Below are positions 4,289-41,001 of a stretch of 44,624 nucleotides of DNA, one piece after another; positions within the stretch are counted from its first letter, which is position 1; every line of letters begins with the position of its first letter. The position numbers and the translations under genes were made by a program. Source of the DNA: Ureibacillus sp. GTDB lineage: Bacteria > Bacillota > Bacilli > Bacillales_A > Planococcaceae. The stretch spans positions 1 through 44,624 of the forward strand of contig JAPSJC010000015.1 in the NCBI GenBank assembly GCA_031178355.1, read 5' to 3'. The notes beneath the pieces were generated by a model that saw nothing but the letters and a program-made list of their open reading frames with translations, did not search any database and was not told the origin of the DNA.

Positions 4289-5373
4289 TTTTTGAATACC
4301 CCTTTTCGTTTTGCCATAAGCCATAGTAATAGTGGTAGAAAGTAAAAAATAGGTGTAGAAATATAGACTAATTTTTCTCGGAAATTAATTAGAGAAAATA
4401 CCGGTGCTTCTGGAATCAGACCTAAAAAGATAATTAATATTGCAATTGAGGGCACAAGGTATTTAAATTGGTTAATTTTAAATAGTGCACCAAATAGTAA
4501 TGCACTAATATATAAATAAAAGGAAAAGCGTATAAAAGATGCTACTAACCAAAACGGTAAAAACAACGATTCTACATTAGTTAAAAACCCTAATTGAATG
4601 TAACGAATCGATTCATGGAAAGGATAATTCAAATGGACAATTGACACATAATCAAACAAAATAATATACGCAATTAGAGATAGTATAAATATAAACGACA
4701 CATACAAGAATCCCGTCCAAATCCCTTTTCTATATACATTGTTACTACGTAATGATGTAACAATAAAACCTAAATAAAGAAATTCTCCAAATATAGATGC
4801 ATTCGATGCACCTTCTTTGATAATCTCACCAATTCCATTTCCCAAAATAGGAAATAAATAACTCAATCTTCCTAAATAAAACGTCAAAACTAGAACAACA
4901 AATAGAGCTAAGTTTAACCCAACGAGGGTAATCCAGGCAGTTGAACCAATAAACTCCAATCCCTTTTTAGCACCATAGGCAGCTACCCCAATTAATATAA
5001 TATATATATATAAAGTAGGTGTTCTCACAAAGTACATCGTTTCTATAATATCGGTATACATAGATGAACTTAGTACAATTGAATAAGTTTCCGTCAACCA
5101 TAAAACAAAAATCACAAAAAACCCAACATATTTTCCTAGTAAATGGTAAATGATATCTACTAAATTTTGATCCTGATATGCCGTTATAACTTTCGTTAAA
5201 AGGTAGATGGGAATGATAGCAAGTAAGCACATTAAGATTATTGTAATCCAAGCAGCACTCCCAACTTTATTAAATAATCCAGTAGGTGTGTTATCAGTCA
5301 ATTTTGTACCGAATGTAATGATTATTATTGCTAAAAATTCCCTAAAACCGAGCTTTCCTTTTGTATGATCCAT
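4285..5373 (-). CDS. spore germination receptor permease-like subunit, GerAB/Spore_permease family
   Basis: B subunit of the germinant receptor: a 362-aa integral membrane protein of the APC (amino acid permease) superfamily with about ten hydrophobic helices. It begins KLGFREFLAIIIITFGTKL, and the family's binding pocket for small-molecule germinants lies in the membrane core. The ATG at 5373 follows AGGGG and lies 2 nt after the A-subunit stop. The 3' end overlaps the C-subunit GTG by 4 nt. The ligand specificity cannot be read from the sequence. Confidence 0.92.
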   Translation of the reverse strand: MDHTKGKLGFREFLAIIIITFGTKLTDNTPTGLFNKVGSAAWITIILMCLLAIIPIYLLTKVITAYQDQNLVDIIYHLLGKYVGFFVIFVLWLTETYSIVLSSSMYTDIIETMYFVRTPTLYIYIILIGVAAYGAKKGLEFIGSTAWITLVGLNLALFVVLVLTFYLGRLSYLFPILGNGIGEIIKEGASNASIFGEFLYLGFIVTSLRSNNVYRKGIWTGFLYVSFIFILSLIAYIILFDYVSIVHLNYPFHESIRYIQLGFLTNVESLFLPFWLVASFIRFSFYLYISALLFGALFKINQFKYLVPSIAILIIFLGLIPEAPVFSLINFREKLVYISTPIFYFLPLLLWLMAKRKGVFKK

Positions 5374-36068: not shown

Positions 36069-36520
36069 TAATTACTATTCGATTCGGCAACTTTTTTCAC
36101 ACGTTCAACAAACTGAACCACTACTTTATCTGATGCAAAGTTAAGCATAAATTTAATAAACCATTTTAATGGATTATTTGTAGTTGTATATTTAAAATAC
36201 GTTTTATTCTCTTCTAATTTTTCCAACTCATATGTAGCTGTAATATCAAACATTTTTGCAAGATTAAATGTAATTTTCACTCGCTTAACTTCTGGCGTAT
36301 TTTCATATTCAAGCGTTCTTACATCATACTCCCTTACACTTTTACCTTCACGATAACTTTGACGGTAAACACTACCAACTTTGTCTTCCGTTATATGAAT
36401 TGGTTCATTACTTACCACTTGGGGCATAATTTTTTGCATATCTTCTAAGCTACCTTCAAACAACTTCCATACTTCTTCTATTGGAGCATTAATTTCAATA
36501 TCTTTTGTCCAGGATTTCAT
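36068..36520 (-). CDS. SRPBCC/START-like family protein
   Basis: A 150-aa single-domain protein with the helix-grip fold pattern: KDIEINAPIEEVWKLFEGS at the start, a central series of beta strands, and a long C-terminal helix (FASDKVVVQFVERVKKVAE). Members bind hydrophobic ligands or act as cyclases; nothing here tells which. ATG behind GGGGGATAAC. Single gene with its own terminator. Confidence 0.8.
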   Translation of the reverse strand: MKSWTKDIEINAPIEEVWKLFEGSLEDMQKIMPQVVSNEPIHITEDKVGSVYRQSYREGKSVREYDVRTLEYENTPEVKRVKITFNLAKMFDITATYELEKLEENKTYFKYTTTNNPLKWFIKFMLNFASDKVVVQFVERVKKVAESNSN

Positions 36521-36762
36521 CGTTATCCCCCATCGAGTTGTTTATATCTTTCATCATAGTATTAGCTGAGAATAATTTCCATAACTTTTAAACTATTTTA
36601 ATTCTTTTTTAATATTAGTTCTACCTAGCTCTAATTTTGAAGGGCATTCTCCTAAAACTGTTGTTTCCCTTTTAATTTAGACTAGAATTTGTGCGTTTGC
36701 CATAGTCGTGACAAATAGGAAACATAAACTAGGAAGGAAATAAGAAAGGGCTGTGATTTATT

Positions 36763-36993
36763 ATGTCAAATAAAGAGCATACCGATCATCAAGGAACAGG
36801 CGCGAAGTTTCTAGTTGCTGGGGGATTTATTTCCTCATTGGGTGAATTCATCCAAGCAATTGGTGGATCACTTCTAGCTATTGAGAAAATGAAAAACCAT
36901 AAAAAAATTGAGAAGCAATATGGCCATAAAATTAATGAATTAGAAAAACAAGTTCATTACTTAACAAAAGAGATTAAAAAAATGAAAAAATAA
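36763..36993 (+). CDS. small protein with hydrophobic N-half and basic coiled-coil C-half, 76 aa
   Basis: Residues 14-40 are Gly/Ile/Leu-rich (FLVAGGFISSLGEFIQAIGG) and could be a membrane or amphipathic helix. Residues 40-76 are a Lys-rich coiled coil (KINELEKQVHYLTKEIKKMKK). The ATG lies about 12 nt after AAAGGG. I do not recognise the family. It could be a small membrane-associated protein of phage or sporulation type; the evidence for expression is modest. Confidence 0.5.
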   Translation: MSNKEHTDHQGTGAKFLVAGGFISSLGEFIQAIGGSLLAIEKMKNHKKIEKQYGHKINELEKQVHYLTKEIKKMKK

Positions 36994-37042
36994 GATGCAA
37001 TTTTACAATGGTGTCTTTTATGAGGTTAGAAATGTTCCGTAC

Positions 37043-37429
37043 TTATATTAAGTTAAAATAAGTAGTCATTTCTTTTATCTTAGCGGTTTTACTATTGTTT
37101 GAAAAAATATATATGCTGCAATAAGCATATCGTTTTTGATCATTTAATGTTACGAATCCATTCACAGCACCAGTTGGCCCGTGAGAAATGATCGTTTGCA
37201 GATCTAATTCCACAACAACTAATTTATCTTTTTTACTTTCCATAAAATTGATAACACTGTCTTTTCCATTTAGTTGTTGGAGCCCTAAAATACTCCACTT
37301 AATATTTTCAGTAATATGATCAAAAAAGAATTGAAATTCATTTTTAGCCATCATAATATTTAATTCTTTAATAAAAATCATCTTGGGAGAATTGCCACAA
37401 TTCTTTGGGGCGATTACTTTTAATTCCAT
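37043..37429 (-). CDS. SnoaL/NTF2-like fold protein
   Basis: A 128-aa soluble protein with the NTF2-like pattern: an N-terminal helix pair (FQFFFDHITENIKWSI), GKDSVINFM, then strands VVVELDLQTIISHGPTGAVNGFVTL and a final IKEMTTYFNLI. Members are small ligand-binding or enzymatic domains. The ATG at 37429 has AAGGATCA just upstream. No operon partner; function unknown. Confidence 0.65.
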   Translation of the reverse strand: MELKVIAPKNCGNSPKMIFIKELNIMMAKNEFQFFFDHITENIKWSILGLQQLNGKDSVINFMESKKDKLVVVELDLQTIISHGPTGAVNGFVTLNDQKRYAYCSIYIFSNNSKTAKIKEMTTYFNLI

Positions 37430-37599
37430 TGATCCTTTTTCCTCTCTAATAGGATTGAATTGTTAAAAATATACTAATGTTTTATTATCATATTATTTTC
37501 CTTTCCACATTGAAAGAGATTTTCCTTATTCCCATACATATACTTCATAACCCTCTTTAAAGTATTCATATCTTTGTCATAATAATCAGAAACGATTAT

Positions 37600-37721
37600 G
37601 AACAATATGTGAATTGTTTCACTTGCTATTTTCAATTACTGATTTTGGGTGTACAATTGTCTCAAGTTGATATATAACACAATATGAAATTACCATAAAT
37701 ATCTTTTTGTGTTGTATAACA
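37600..37721 (+). promoter_or_regulatory. conserved upstream module, copy A (Fnr/Rex-like palindrome, -10, 5' hairpin)
   Basis: GTGAATTGTTTCAC (37609-37622) is a GTGAA-N4-TTCAC palindrome, one base off the Fnr consensus TGTGA-N6-TCACA and similar to Rex sites. TACAAT follows at 37652-37657. The block GTTGATATATAACACAAT (from 37666) lies where transcription should start. TGTTGTATAACA (37710-37721) with the preceding TTGTG can pair with that block over 11 bp. Copy B at 39329 shares every element and its spacing. The activator or repressor identity is inferred. Confidence 0.6.
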
Positions 37722-37789
37722 AAATGTTAATTCTAGTATTGATAAAATCTAAAATATAGATTTAAAATGAACTTGAGGAGGTTCCCAAT

Positions 37790-37930
37790 ATGAAATGGGT
37801 ACTAACAGTATTTAAACAGGACACTTATCACATATTTGAATTCGAAACTAAGATTGAAGCACAACAAGCACAAGAACATTCAGAATACCCTTCCGTAATA
37901 ACTTATACAAACCTATCATTAGTAGCCTGA
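37790..37930 (+). CDS. microprotein A of a three-member family, 46 aa
   Basis: A 46-codon gene with an excellent ribosome site (GAGGAGG, 9 nt before ATG), its own regulatory module and a terminator. The protein starts MKWVLTVFKQDTYHIFEFET, then EAQQAQEH, and ends in SVITYTNLSLVA. The pattern W[VI]xTVF-x7-[FY]EF-x4-EA-x(8-9)-[SA][VI][IL][ST][YF]T is shared with the two 40-aa proteins at 39479 and 39687. Predicted structure is strand-strand-helix-strand. I do not recognise the family. Conservation of three copies makes chance ORFs very unlikely. Confidence 0.8.
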   Translation: MKWVLTVFKQDTYHIFEFETKIEAQQAQEHSEYPSVITYTNLSLVA

Positions 37931-37935
37931 AAATA

Positions 37936-37970
37936 AATAAGAGACGCCTCGTATCGGCGTCTCTTCTTAT
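37936..37970. terminator. bidirectional terminator after microprotein A
   Basis: AGAGACGCC (37940-37948) pairs with GGCGTCTCT (37956-37964). T-rich sequence follows on both strands, so it also serves the minus-strand TetR gene ending at 37984. Confidence 0.8.
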
Positions 37971-37983
37971 AATCCATATATTT

Positions 37984-38616
37984 TTAATCAACACGCGTAG
38001 ATAAGTCAAAGATTAAGTTTAATTCTTTTATATACTCACTTACATCGACGTCTGGATTTCTTATTATTTCAAGACTAAACCCATCAATTGTATTTCGTAT
38101 TGTTTGGGCAAGAATTCTTCTTGAAAGTTTCGTAAATCTTCTAAAAGAACCATCCTTCATTCCTAATAGTAAAATGTATTCGATTGGTTCTAATATCCTC
38201 TCATCAAACTTACCAGCAAACTTGAATTTCCCTTCTTTTGTTCTAGTGTTCGATACAATTTCAATATTTGCATAAACAAGATTTCGATTTTGTTCGATAA
38301 AATGTAAATGTGACTTAATGTATTTTTGCATCATTTTTTTAGGTGGAATTTGCATATCAAACTGTGGTAAAAATGTAGATTTACTTAGTTCGTCATATTT
38401 ATATACAATTTGTTCAAATAACTCATCCTTGCTCGAAAAGTGGTAAGAAATAACTCCTTTACTTACATTTGCCCTTTTTGCAATTTCTCCTAATGATGCT
38501 TGTGTATATCCAATCTCGACAATTGTGTCGATTGCACACTCAATTATCTGACTTCGTCTAGCTTGCTCAATAAAAGTAACCTTTTTTAGTTTCGTTATTT
38601 CATTATCTGTATTCAT
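37984..38616 (-). CDS. TetR/AcrR-family transcriptional regulator
   Basis: A 210-aa regulator with an N-terminal HTH (about 18-68; ASLGEIAKRANVSKGVISYHFSSKDELFEQI) and a helical effector domain. No Shine-Dalgarno sequence precedes the ATG at 38616, so translation may be weak or the start may be internal. It lies 96 nt downstream of the DoxX-like gene with a terminator between them. The DoxX-like gene is the nearest candidate target. Confidence 0.85.
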   Translation of the reverse strand: MNTDNEITKLKKVTFIEQARRSQIIECAIDTIVEIGYTQASLGEIAKRANVSKGVISYHFSSKDELFEQIVYKYDELSKSTFLPQFDMQIPPKKMMQKYIKSHLHFIEQNRNLVYANIEIVSNTRTKEGKFKFAGKFDERILEPIEYILLLGMKDGSFRRFTKLSRRILAQTIRNTIDGFSLEIIRNPDVDVSEYIKELNLIFDLSTRVD

Positions 38617-38663
38617 AGTTAAATTTTAGTACAAACATACAATTATTACAAATAATTCATTTA

Positions 38664-38695
38664 TATAAAAAAACGCATGGATTATTCCCATGCGT
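38664..38695 (-). terminator. intrinsic terminator of the DoxX-like gene
   Basis: ACGCATGG (38673-38680) pairs with CCATGCGT (38688-38695), followed by seven T on the minus strand. Confidence 0.85.
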
Positions 38696-38712
38696 ATATT
38701 AGGTTAAATTAC

Positions 38713-39072
38713 CTAAAAATATAATCGACCAACTGTAACGAATAAGGCTACCAAAAATAAAGCAAACACAATCGGTACACTTTGAAAATCATTACGTTTA
38801 TATTGGAAAACGGTTGCAAACAGCATAAGAATCGATAACACTAATGAAGCTACCGGTATTATAAATGACACATTACTAATTGCTAACGGTAAAACTAATC
38901 CTAATGCGCAAAGAACCTCAACGTATCCAATGAAAATAACTAAACCCTTCGGAACATCGTTTACCCATGGAATATTGGCCTTGGCAATATCATATTGAAA
39001 TGCTTTCAACACGCCATCCATGATAAACATTAACATTAATGAAATTTGAAAAATCCACAGTATAGCATTCAT
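38713..39072 (-). CDS. DoxX-like four-helix membrane protein
   Basis: A 119-aa protein with four hydrophobic helices and the DoxX-type features MDGVLKAF near the end of helix 1 and GYVEVLCALGLVLP in helix 2. DoxX-like proteins sit in the cytoplasmic membrane and are often linked to redox or thiol stress; the role here is unknown. ATG behind AAGGGGGA. CGACA/TGTCG at 39111-39142, upstream of the start, might be part of an operator, but this is weak. Confidence 0.8.
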   Translation of the reverse strand: MNAILWIFQISLMLMFIMDGVLKAFQYDIAKANIPWVNDVPKGLVIFIGYVEVLCALGLVLPLAISNVSFIIPVASLVLSILMLFATVFQYKRNDFQSVPIVFALFLVALFVTVGRLYF

Positions 39073-39328
39073 TTAACTTCCCCCTTGTCTTTGAATGCTC
39101 TTTAATAGTTCGACACGTTTTCCAATACGTTTAAATATGTCGATTTTTAGTTATATATATAGAGTATTCATGGACATTTATTTTGGGAGTCGACAATGAA
39201 TAAAAGTCTTTTACAGGATCTTATAAACATGTAATCCATTAGTTTTTATCATTACCCAGTCATAATCTGTCGTGAAACATAATTGTGCATGCTTTTTATA
39301 CAAAATTTTGTGAAATCGTTAACACTTT

Positions 39329-39448
39329 GAACAATATGTGAAATATTTCACTTTCTATTTTATTTTTCCTGTTTTGGATGTACAATGGATACAGTTGATA
39401 TATAACACAATTAGAAATTATTAAATTTTATAAAGATGTTATATAACA
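39329..39448 (+). promoter_or_regulatory. conserved upstream module, copy B (Fnr/Rex-like palindrome, -10, 5' hairpin)
   Basis: GTGAAATATTTCAC (39338-39351) is a perfect 14-bp palindrome inside GAACAATATGTGAA, a stretch shared with copy A. TACAAT is at 39381-39386, exactly 29 nt after the palindrome as in copy A. GTTGATATATAACACAAT (from 39394) is identical in 18 of 18 bases. TGTTATATAACA (39437-39448) is a perfect palindrome at the matching distance. No -35 box is visible in either copy, which fits an activator-dependent promoter. Confidence 0.6.
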
Positions 39449-39478
39449 ATATTAATCTGTATGAAAGGAGATCCTTCG

Positions 39479-39601
39479 ATGTGGGTTATTACTGTTTTCG
39501 AACAAAATTCTATTCGTATGTATGAATTCGTTGAAAAAAGTGAAGCTACTTTAGTTATGGAACGCTTTAAAGGTTCTGCCATTTTATCGTATACTAAATA
39601 A
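39479..39601 (+). CDS. microprotein B of the family, 40 aa
   Basis: A 40-codon gene with AAAGGAGA upstream. It begins MWVITVFEQNSIRMYEF, continues with an EA-containing helix and ends in FKGSAILSYTK. It is closest to microprotein C (same length, same C-terminal AILS[YF]TK) and more distant from A, which has an extra Lys at position 2 and a longer tail. B and C are probably cotranscribed from module B: 85 nt separate them, with no terminator between. No membrane segment; probably cytoplasmic. Confidence 0.8.
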   Translation: MWVITVFEQNSIRMYEFVEKSEATLVMERFKGSAILSYTK

Positions 39602-39686
39602 TTTATTTAGTCGGAAACATTGTAATTTGACACCTTTATAGTTCAATCAATTGTTATGAATAGAAAATAACTTGGAGGGATCTTAA

Positions 39687-39809
39687 ATGTGGATTGTAAC
39701 TGTATTTGAGAACAATACTTATCGTATGTTTGAATTTAGTGGTCAACAAGAAGCAAAAAAACTAGCAGCAAAATTTAAAGATAATGCTATTTTGTCTTTT
39801 ACTAAATAA
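39687..39809 (+). CDS. microprotein C of the family, 40 aa
   Basis: A 40-codon gene with TTGGAGGG upstream. It begins MWIVTVFENNTYRMFEF, followed by a Lys/Ala-rich helix with QQEAKKLAAKF, and ends in DNAILSFTK. Its N-terminal half is close to both A (TYRMFEF versus TYHIFEF) and B, so it links the family. It has no conserved promoter module of its own and is followed directly by a strong terminator. It is therefore read as the second gene of a B-C operon. Confidence 0.8.
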   Translation: MWIVTVFENNTYRMFEFSGQQEAKKLAAKFKDNAILSFTK

Positions 39810-39811
39810 AA

Positions 39812-39852
39812 AAAGGAGCATCGATTTCATTTATCGATGCTCTTTTATATTT
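39812..39852 (+). terminator. intrinsic terminator of the microprotein B-C operon
   Basis: GAGCATCGAT (39816-39825) pairs with ATCGATGCTC (39833-39842), followed by TTTTATATTT. Confidence 0.9.
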
Positions 39853-39993
39853 GTTACGGTCCTAAAGCTACTATTTAAAACGTGTTAAATTATTAAGTTA
39901 AACTGATTTTTTCTACATTTCAGCATTATTCCTTTAATATTCTAAATATTCTAAATTAATTTATTCTTAAATTAAACATTAAATTGTGACAAA

Positions 39994-40050
39994 TTTGTGA
40001 ATTTCTTTATTTCTAACACAATCCGACAAATTTTTTATTCTATCTATTAT
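39994..40050 (+). promoter_or_regulatory. ResD-like box and sigma-A-like promoter of the Spo0E-like gene
   Basis: TTTGTGAAT (39994-40002) is followed 20 nt later by CCGACA (40023-40028), a 16-nt spacer and TATTAT (40045-40050). The box lies about 53 nt upstream of the -10 centre. It is the same nonamer as in the qox inverted repeat. Confidence 0.45.
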
Positions 40051-40069
40051 ACAATGGGGGAGCTTTGAT

Positions 40070-40093
40070 AAATTTGATAGAAAATTTGATAGA
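40070..40093 (+). repeat. tandem 12-bp direct repeat in the Spo0E-like leader
   Basis: AAATTTGATAGA occurs twice head to tail at 40070-40081 and 40082-40093, between the promoter and the ribosome site. A partial match (CTTTGATA) precedes it. Confidence 0.6.
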
Positions 40094-40133
40094 AAATCTA
40101 TTACAGAAGTTATTATAATTTACGGAGGAAATT

Positions 40134-40301
40134 ATGATGAAAGACTTTTTATTTAAAAAATTTTTAAAGGTAGCTATTGAAATGAAACGAAAAGATATGT
40201 ATAGAAAAGCACAAGACTTAGGATTCACTCATCCAGAAACTGTCACATGTAGTCAAGAATTAGATGCTTTATTAAATGTGTATACTCATAATGTTGCTTA
40301 A
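40134..40301 (+). CDS. Spo0E-like aspartyl-phosphate phosphatase, 55 aa
   Basis: A short two-helix protein with the family signature SQELDALLNVY (residues 40-50), preceded by IEMKRKDMYRKAQDLGFTHPE. Spo0E-type phosphatases remove the phosphate from Spo0A~P or other response regulators and so hold back sporulation. Length and helix-turn-helix layout fit the short members of the family. ATG 40134 (a second ATG follows at once) after GGAGG. It has its own promoter, a tandem repeat in the leader and a terminator. The phosphatase target is not known. Confidence 0.85.
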   Translation: MMKDFLFKKFLKVAIEMKRKDMYRKAQDLGFTHPETVTCSQELDALLNVYTHNVA

Positions 40302-40367
40302 TAAAATAAAATATATCAATATGGAGTGAATTATATAAATTCTTTACATATAAATTTTATAACTTTG

Positions 40368-40412
40368 CCCAGATATGATAGAAAGCTTCTATCTTTCTGG
40401 GATTTTATTTTT
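40368..40412 (+). terminator. intrinsic terminator of the Spo0E-like gene
   Basis: CCCAG (40368-40372) with CTGGG (40397-40401) and an inner GATAGAA/TTCTATC stem, followed by ATTTTATTTTTT. Confidence 0.75.
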
Positions 40413-40971
40413 TACTCTGTACAAGAATTAAATGGGGCAATTCCCATAACTAGGGAAATCCTAATGGCCCGGTTAGTACATCCAGATTTCTGGTTGGAAT
40501 TTATTAATTTCCCCCAATGATGTTAAGTTACTTCGGTTGGCAAGGTAATCTTATCATACTAGGTCTCATATACTTTTTTCTTACTGTTACTTCTATTACC
40601 TAATTACCCACATTGAAAATTATTAAACATAAAAAATCTTTTTTTTTACATTTTTACAAAATTGTAATGCAAATAAGACCTGTATTTGCGTTTTCAACTA
40701 CTATTACTACCTTCGCTAATTATTATATATACAATACTAGATGTATTTTTTATCTGCACCGTTTCATTTCTAACAACTTATTTTATTTGTTCGTACATTG
40801 GTTTGATTAGAATTCAAACATTTACCGCTAGTCCTAACACAAAGTAAATTGGCATAGATCAAATTTTATAAATTAGCTCATGTACCTATCATTTCACAGT
40901 AAATTAGACTTATATTGGAAAAATAAGTTACAGTTTTTTTCTAAAAGTTCAACCATTTTTATTTCTTCAAG
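40413..40971. other. non-coding AT-rich stretch
   Basis: About 560 bases. Several open frames of 60-66 codons cross it, but none has a ribosome site. One also overlaps the terminator of the Spo0E-like gene. I see no repeat or RNA gene here. Confidence 0.45.
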
Positions 40972-41001
40972 TAAAAAAGACGTTCCTAAATCTAGGAACG
41001 T
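40972..41001 (-). terminator. intrinsic terminator of the phosphoesterase gene
   Basis: ACGTTCCTA (40980-40988) pairs with TAGGAACGT (40993-41001), with T-rich sequence after it on the minus strand. Confidence 0.8.

Follow-up and report, generated by a model that had tools for sequence, protein, structure and literature searches.

What do three reading frames of only 40 to 46 codons, lying close together in a bacterial contig, encode, and when would they be expressed? The stretch in question, called the window throughout, is a whole contig of 44,624 nucleotides (nt) from Ureibacillus sp. (GenBank assembly GCA_031178355.1, contig JAPSJC010000015.1). A reading of its sequence alone, here termed the original prediction, had singled out three related short genes at 37790, 39479 and 39687 with strong ribosome sites and had held that they form a real, maintained family that it could not name. 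Their places, ribosome sites and homology are borne out by the present analysis, which also suggests that genes of this family are probably controlled by the repressor Rex. Lengths are given in amino acids (aa).

37790..37930, plus strand: microprotein gene 1, 46 aa, long C-terminal type (...SVITYTNLSLVA); homology and AlphaFold2
39479..39601, plus strand: microprotein gene 2, 40 aa; homology and AlphaFold2
39687..39809, plus strand: microprotein gene 3, 40 aa, downstream member of the pair; homology

An unnamed microprotein family under purifying selection

A good ribosome site stands before each of the three genes, and 10 columns are invariant in the alignment of the three window proteins. 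A profile search for relatives, which the original prediction had proposed, was run with a profile of the three window proteins; within their bacterial family, the Planococcaceae, it matched 84 of 151 genomes (own genome counted), distributed over 13 of 19 genera. With a 21-sequence profile, 21 of 398 genomes of the class were matched, four of them outside the family. The hosts named among 37 loci are Lysinibacillus, Ureibacillus, Sporosarcina, Psychrobacillus and Metalysinibacillus. The ratio of nonsynonymous to synonymous substitution (dN/dS), the other check that had been proposed, had a median of 0.26 and was below 0.5 in 94.7% of 2024 pairs (non-independent pairs of equal-length copies with pS of 0.05-0.7), indicating purifying selection at codons. 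Sequence comparison thus confirms the three open reading frames (ORFs) as homologous real genes under purifying selection, and three overlooked ORFs become a testable family in 13 of the 19 sampled genera of one bacterial family.

Members are of two length types, one of 40 aa and one of 45 aa with an extra ...NLTLVA-like tail. They lie in tandem pairs and arrays of up to five near-identical copies, with 1 to 6 matches per positive genome. At one locus (L223:4068-4935), five near-identical tandem microgenes with a spacing of 186-187 bp follow a single Rex-type box, which points to recent amplification; elsewhere (G094:C9:1246-1356, L080 near 695), a decayed extra microgene with one in-frame stop is adjacent to intact copies, which points to turnover of the array. 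Plasmid records, searched with one distant form only, gave six matches, two of them under an annotated gene. A phage origin was considered and rejected: a scan of viral contigs gave no confirmed relative, phage records searched with one distant form only gave no match, and no PHROG match was convincing.

No known family claimed these proteins. Searches of Pfam, NCBIfam, PHROGs and PDB sequences gave no match at the curated cut-off or at E < 0.001 (NCBIfam was searched with the three window proteins and eight distant ones). The best PHROG match had E 0.0049, to a phrog matched by 6 of 56 members, and the best Pfam match E 0.018, to a family matched by 3 of 56; among the distant members, the best Pfam match had E 0.0019, to a family matched by 2 of 8. 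The strand-strand-helix-strand fold that the original prediction had assigned to the proteins agrees with the AlphaFold2 models of two of them. In the 39479 protein (predicted local distance difference test, pLDDT, 93.1), strands at 2-8 and 11-17 are followed by a helix at 20-27 and a strand at 34-38. The 37790 protein has the same fold (pLDDT 92.0), with a less certain tail. A Foldseek search against PDB gave no match with E below 1.3, and no fold relative is claimed. Because strands 1 and 2 are hydrophobic on both sides in the alignment of 56 members, the proteins probably dimerise or dock on a partner. Membrane-acting type I toxins consist of a single hydrophobic membrane helix; here, by contrast, the predicted structure is beta-beta-alpha-beta and its helix is short and partly charged. 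We infer that this unnamed family consists of small cytosolic or soluble beta-beta-alpha-beta proteins.

A Rex-type operator precedes most first genes

The surrounding genes had been described as giving no direct clue. This holds for the neighbouring protein genes, judged from 38 loci, and fails for the non-coding DNA, in which a Rex-type operator and a twin palindrome were found.

37608..37623, plus strand: Rex-type operator TGTGAATTGTTTCACT of the first promoter, an exact match to TGTGAANNNNTTCACW
37652..37657, plus strand: -10-like TACAAT of the first promoter, 28 nt past the operator, read from the sequence
37668..37679, plus strand: first half of the twin palindrome of the first promoter, TGATATATAACA
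37710..37721, plus strand: second half of the twin palindrome of the first promoter, TGTTGTATAACA, spacer 30
37939..37965, minus strand: hairpin separating gene 1 from the convergent TetR gene; a terminator by score on the minus strand only
39337..39352, plus strand: Rex-type operator TGTGAAATATTTCACT of the second promoter, an exact match to TGTGAANNNNTTCACW
39381..39386, plus strand: -10-like TACAAT of the second promoter, 28 nt past the operator, read from the sequence
39396..39407, plus strand: first half of the twin palindrome of the second promoter, TGATATATAACA
39437..39448, plus strand: second half of the twin palindrome of the second promoter, TGTTATATAACA, spacer 29
39812..39846, plus strand: intrinsic terminator after the 39479/39687 pair, 14-bp stem and T tail

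The 28-nt distance from operator to TACAAT is equal at the two window promoters and in the relatives counted by eye. The operator was scored as TGTGAA-N4-TTCAC, against TGTGAANNNNTTCACW and allowing a single mismatch, for genes that have 200 nt or more of upstream sequence. By this measure 67 of 77 family genes that stand first in their cluster carry the box, 46 of them perfectly, at 91-182 nt upstream, versus 16 of 694 control ORFs, none perfectly; the controls are all frames in the window and in L033-L069 that reach 100 aa, some perhaps not genes, and neither the first genes nor the controls are independent of descent. The box was absent from all 41 second genes of clusters and from the four copies outside the bacterial family. 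In the 210 nt before gene 39687, no separate promoter element was found. Since second genes lack the box, 39687 is most likely co-transcribed with 39479 and read from the promoter of that first gene. The three genes had also been described as all bounded by good terminators; this is right for the one at 39812-39846 after 39687 but not for the hairpin after 37790, which scored on the opposite strand only. The operators, like the reality of the genes and their tandem amplification, can be read directly from the DNA.

The first promoter of the window (37608-37790) and that of U. acetophenoni (L034:7042-7212) serve only a gene of the 46-aa type, behind a long leader, whereas U. manganicus (L033) retains a 40-aa gene there. 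The window and U. acetophenoni have probably lost the first gene of a pair at this promoter.

Genome-wide, the exact pattern is rare. It occurs at three places in the own genome, which is 76% complete, two of them in front of microgenes (four strand hits versus two for a reversed control). Five complete genomes of the genus hold it at 15 places, with 11 forward and 11 reverse hits versus 2 and 3 for the reversed pattern. Five of these places are microgene promoters, the microgene site of G106 having one mismatch and so falling outside the count. Another five adjoin a flavoprotein gene resembling type II NADH dehydrogenase (NDH-2), which carries the operator in 6 of 6 genomes when the own genome is added; this protein scores under the cut-offs of the pyridine nucleotide-disulphide oxidoreductase models that it matches, and the NDH-2-like label was given by eye. 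Two places are upstream of atpI-atpB, where ATP synthase subunit A scores over its cut-off, and the remaining three (L122, L125, L127) have no evident target.

Rex or a CRP/FNR-type regulator

According to PMC2883068, Staphylococcus aureus Rex binds TTGTGAAW4TTCACAA, and this binding is lowered by NADH. Rex itself (PF06971) scored over its cut-off in 9 of 9 genomes checked, including the own genome. Of ten further loci, five of which overlap earlier ones, seven have upstream of their microgenes a box that departs from the 18-bp form by no more than two mismatches, and it is the perfect 18-bp Rex consensus in L220, L221 and L227. We regard Rex control of the microgenes as likely.

Several observations speak against it. 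Ten of the 77 first genes have no box, and neither have L224, L225 and L226 among the ten further loci. If TACAAT is the -10, the centre of the box lies near -48.5, farther upstream than a simple repressor site. Moreover, 6 of the 9 genomes checked (G046, G010, G131, G145, G106 and G125) have a gene for an Fnr-like protein that bears a Cys cluster at its C-terminus and whose site looks alike; in the own genome, which is incomplete, no Fnr with the cysteine cluster was seen. As a separate observation, the box-less microgene pairs of genus g13 (L224, L226) lie within about 0.5-3 kb of genes that by eye resemble ahpC/ahpF or glutathione peroxidase.

These Fnr-like proteins raise the question of whether a CRP/FNR regulator, Fnr or ArcR-like, acts in place of Rex, which would make the proteins part of an Fnr-activated response to oxygen limitation. 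The CRP/FNR consensus is TGTGA-N6-TCACA, and several Lysinibacillus sites, such as TGTGAAAACACTCACA, fit this form better than that of Rex. A search for TGTGA-N6-TCACW, or TGTGANNNNNNTCACW, with at most one mismatch in 210 nt upstream found it at 67 of 122 gene copies, a motif which cannot separate Fnr from Rex. The poor -35 together with an upstream site would also suit an activator, and the ArcR and Rex motifs are described as similar in PMC2883068. Three findings argue the other way. The complete genome G039 (genus g3) has five microgenes, with boxes at 4487 and 5169 of L220, one of them the perfect TTGTGAAAACATTCACAA, and encodes Rex, but gave no PF00027 match at E <= 1e-4; a CRP/FNR regulator is thus not found in every genome that carries the box. 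The boxes of L220, L221 and L227 are the perfect Rex consensus. Finally, CRP/FNR-type activator sites are centred at -41.5, not at the -48.5 or so given by the spacing here. Rex is favoured because G039 has boxes and Rex but no PF00027 match, and a CRP/FNR regulator in its stead is unlikely, if the best placed of the alternatives. Fnr could still act as an additional regulator beside Rex in Ureibacillus.

Gene neighbourhoods and distant relatives

Across the 38 loci compared within the bacterial family, no protein gene is conserved as a partner. Two candidates were rejected as likely synteny by descent: proBA-like genes as an operon partner, downstream in 10 of the 38 loci and in the other orientation in an eleventh, and the fixed context of the L. 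sphaericus group (9 of 38). In the window itself, a gene for a 128-aa protein without a Pfam match (37043-37429) has relatives near microgenes in 5 of the 38 loci, window included. A 76-aa protein (36763-36993; no family at cut-off for this copy) has a 77-aa counterpart near microgenes in a second genome (L177:1023-1256), the two sharing by eye the segment SSxGEFIQAI..SL.AIEKM. Past the terminator of the microgene pair, a Spo0E-like phosphatase gene (40134-40301; Pfam E 1.7e-15) is preceded by an AT-rich near-palindrome at about 39990-40010, also noted by eye.

Longer forms of 48-54 aa occur outside the family, and a profile of eight of them recovers the Planococcaceae copies, including the three of the own genome, together with an outside match in G435. 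On Priestia plasmids, the microgene lies about 35 bp past an amino-acid permease gene that itself follows proline dehydrogenase and pruA (L111, L112; L107 has the same context with the permease not annotated) or about 70 bp past a Glu/Leu/Phe/Val dehydrogenase gene (L109, L110). A Cytobacillus plasmid has it in the same region as pruA and proline dehydrogenase. In G376, it lies between glucarate-type dehydratase-like and semialdehyde dehydrogenase-like genes, and in three genomes of genus g58 beside a PrpF-like or LysE-like gene. Labels given by eye are those of proBA, the glucarate-type genes of L116, the PrpF-like and LysE-like neighbours in L113-L115, and the ahpC/ahpF-like genes. Because some of these distant relatives adjoin genes for the catabolism of proline, glutamate and glucarate, a role in NADH-producing catabolism is suggested.

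The neighbourhoods also bear on whether the microproteins serve a respiratory or ATP-synthase complex under the same control as small subunits, either structural or for its assembly, an idea that draws on the presence of the same motif at the NDH-2-like gene and at atpI-atpB. No respiratory or ATP-synthase operon appears among the 45 commonest neighbour clusters, the models of the 39479 and 37790 proteins contain no hydrophobic membrane helix, and a number of matches that varies from 1 to 6 per positive genome would be unusual for a fixed subunit. We consider such a subunit role improbable.

A twin palindrome downstream of the -10

Among the 66 promoters with a TGTGA site, 48 carry two AT-rich palindromes past the -10, approximately TGATATATAACA and TGTTATATAACA. 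The spacer between them is 18-20 in 9 promoters and 29-31 in 39, with none between, so that the palindromes lie about 31 or 42 bp apart, centre to centre, or three or four helical turns. The first element is missing from 18 promoters, 12 of them from genus g3; two of the 18, L004 and L066, carry a variant missed by the search expression. Both spacer classes are present in Ureibacillus-group and Lysinibacillus loci, which by eye, without a tree, suggests repeated switches between them. Because the spacers differ by about one helical turn, we read the element as the site of a DNA-bound protein: in Lysinibacillus and Ureibacillus, a second DNA-binding regulator probably acts through the palindromes on one face of the helix.

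A count of the exact palindrome across eight genomes gave 28 places, 9 of them at microgene promoters. CstA-like genes have it upstream in seven cases, TAXI-type TRAP receptor genes in three, dctA and a 61-aa ORF in two each, and a DUF485/SSS-type symporter gene and an MFS transporter gene in one each. Two more copies are found on the 3' side of heme O synthase genes, and the last, on the 3' side of a lactate-type MFS gene, precedes a hemolysin-III-like frame by about 220 nt. Labels by eye are those of the CstA-like genes except L182 (which is far below the NCBIfam cut-off), the 61-aa ORF, the MFS gene of L194 and the symporter of L176. The carboxylate-related sites carry TGTTATATAACA at CstA-like genes in L171, L172, L181, L182, L184, L189 and L192, at TAXI-TRAP genes in L173, L179 and L185, and at dctA in L190 and L191; by eye, several of the CstA-like and dctA genes have another near-copy at a distance of about three helical turns. 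It is possible that TGTTATATAACA marks a carboxylate regulon so far unrecognised, and the twin palindrome would then point to a so far unrecognised regulator of carboxylate uptake in these bacteria. The 61-aa ORF, which directly follows a TGTTATATAACA palindrome in L180 and in L193 near 1458-1560, may encode a further small protein of that putative regulon. The search for the identity of the second regulator gave no candidate; in the literature covered, the exact palindrome string stands in one paper, on an unrelated virus. ctaB was rejected as a target, the site being 3' of the heme O synthase gene in L178 and L188.

An alternative to a DNA site is that the 5' leader forms an RNA hairpin, TATAACA with TGTTATA, that controls translation or decay, or that the transcript is mainly a regulatory RNA. 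The two elements are able to pair, and the adjacent base is complementary in 28 of 48 leaders, where permutation predicts 19.3 (p 0.003, with no correction for relatedness). No significant excess is seen at the three positions beyond it (p 0.10, 0.12 and 0.46), and spacers confined to 18-20 or 29-31, one helical turn apart, indicate a DNA-bound protein rather than a loop. In an Rfam scan of 36500-41000 no family scored above chance, a single match lying far below the gathering score, and selection on codons indicates that the protein matters. Given the helical spacing and the weak covariation, the hairpin was rejected as the principal explanation of the twin element, and control by RNA is more improbable still than a subunit role. 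That the microgenes are spurious ORFs with chance similarity between short frames, as their length and the annotation of only two of six plasmid matches to the distant form might suggest, can be dismissed in view of ribosome-site-bearing homologues in at least 13 genera, purifying selection (dN/dS), conserved promoter boxes and a confident fold.

A possible place in the control of NADH and carbon flux

In the explanation that we prefer, the microproteins would belong to the cell's control of NADH and carbon flux. A rising NADH/NAD+ ratio would release Rex and derepress the microgenes. A second regulator would set the level of expression through the two palindromes just downstream of the -10, the same palindrome being present at some promoters of carboxylate transporters. 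The microprotein would act by binding a partner in NADH-generating catabolism; under excess NADH it would modulate an NADH-producing enzyme or pathway, with copy number tuning the dose.

Three points count against this explanation: no convincing Rex box was found near any distant relative; the distant neighbours fall into some six independent contexts, four in line with the NADH idea and two, those of g58, not obviously so; and single palindromes outnumber those of the reversed control only modestly (28 versus 19). Weighing these, we lean towards a role of the family in redox or carbon flux. The explanation as a whole, Rex-derepressed small binding proteins in the control of NADH and carbon flux, is plausible at a little short of an even chance, and that the microproteins modulate NADH-generating enzymes is a more tentative suggestion. 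To our knowledge, few microproteins link redox state to carbon catabolism. For this family, the analysis offers a strong prediction of the time of production, at high NADH/NAD+, and names a few candidate pathways.

Comparison with known systems

Among the best-ranked literature matches, no publication was found on these genes by name or on a Rex regulon in Lysinibacillus or Ureibacillus; absence from print is not claimed. The nearest protein is SR1P of Bacillus subtilis, described in PMC8152036 as a 39-aa protein, so far reported from Bacillales alone, whose expression occurs under gluconeogenic conditions, with CcpN and CcpA as its repressors, and which binds GapA. Compared by description only, SR1P resembles the microproteins in its length of about 40 residues, its control by carbon state, its occurrence in Bacillales and its action by enzyme binding, which for the microproteins is inferred. 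It differs in originating from a dual-function RNA under CcpN/CcpA, whereas the microproteins have Rex-type boxes and many tandem copies.

The nearest regulator is RoxS/RsaE, a Rex-controlled small RNA proposed to lower NADH-producing enzymes at high NADH (PMC8216469; Rfam RF01820). Both would be small regulators under Rex control, but RoxS is an RNA and the microproteins are proteins. The possibility that the microproteins replace RoxS was rejected: RF01820 has matches in 151 of 151 family genomes, 104 of them over the gathering score, and the microproteins would therefore act beside RoxS. In the most specific form of our proposal, one that we hold to be quite unlikely, they would be a protein counterpart of RoxS: copies released by Rex would dimerise through their sheet and dock on, and brake, NADH-generating dehydrogenases or their regulators, with a carboxylate-responsive second regulator setting the level at the helically phased twin operators and with tandem amplification as the means by which lineages tune the response.

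The members of the Rex regulon known to us are enzymes, transporters and RoxS. The microgenes share their operator type with Rex regulon genes such as ndh (Gyan et al. 2006, cited in PMC2883068), and the NDH-2-like gene described above carries it too. They resemble members of the regulon in having an operator close to TTGTGAA-N4-TTCACAA in a genome that encodes Rex, and would thus be candidate additions to it.

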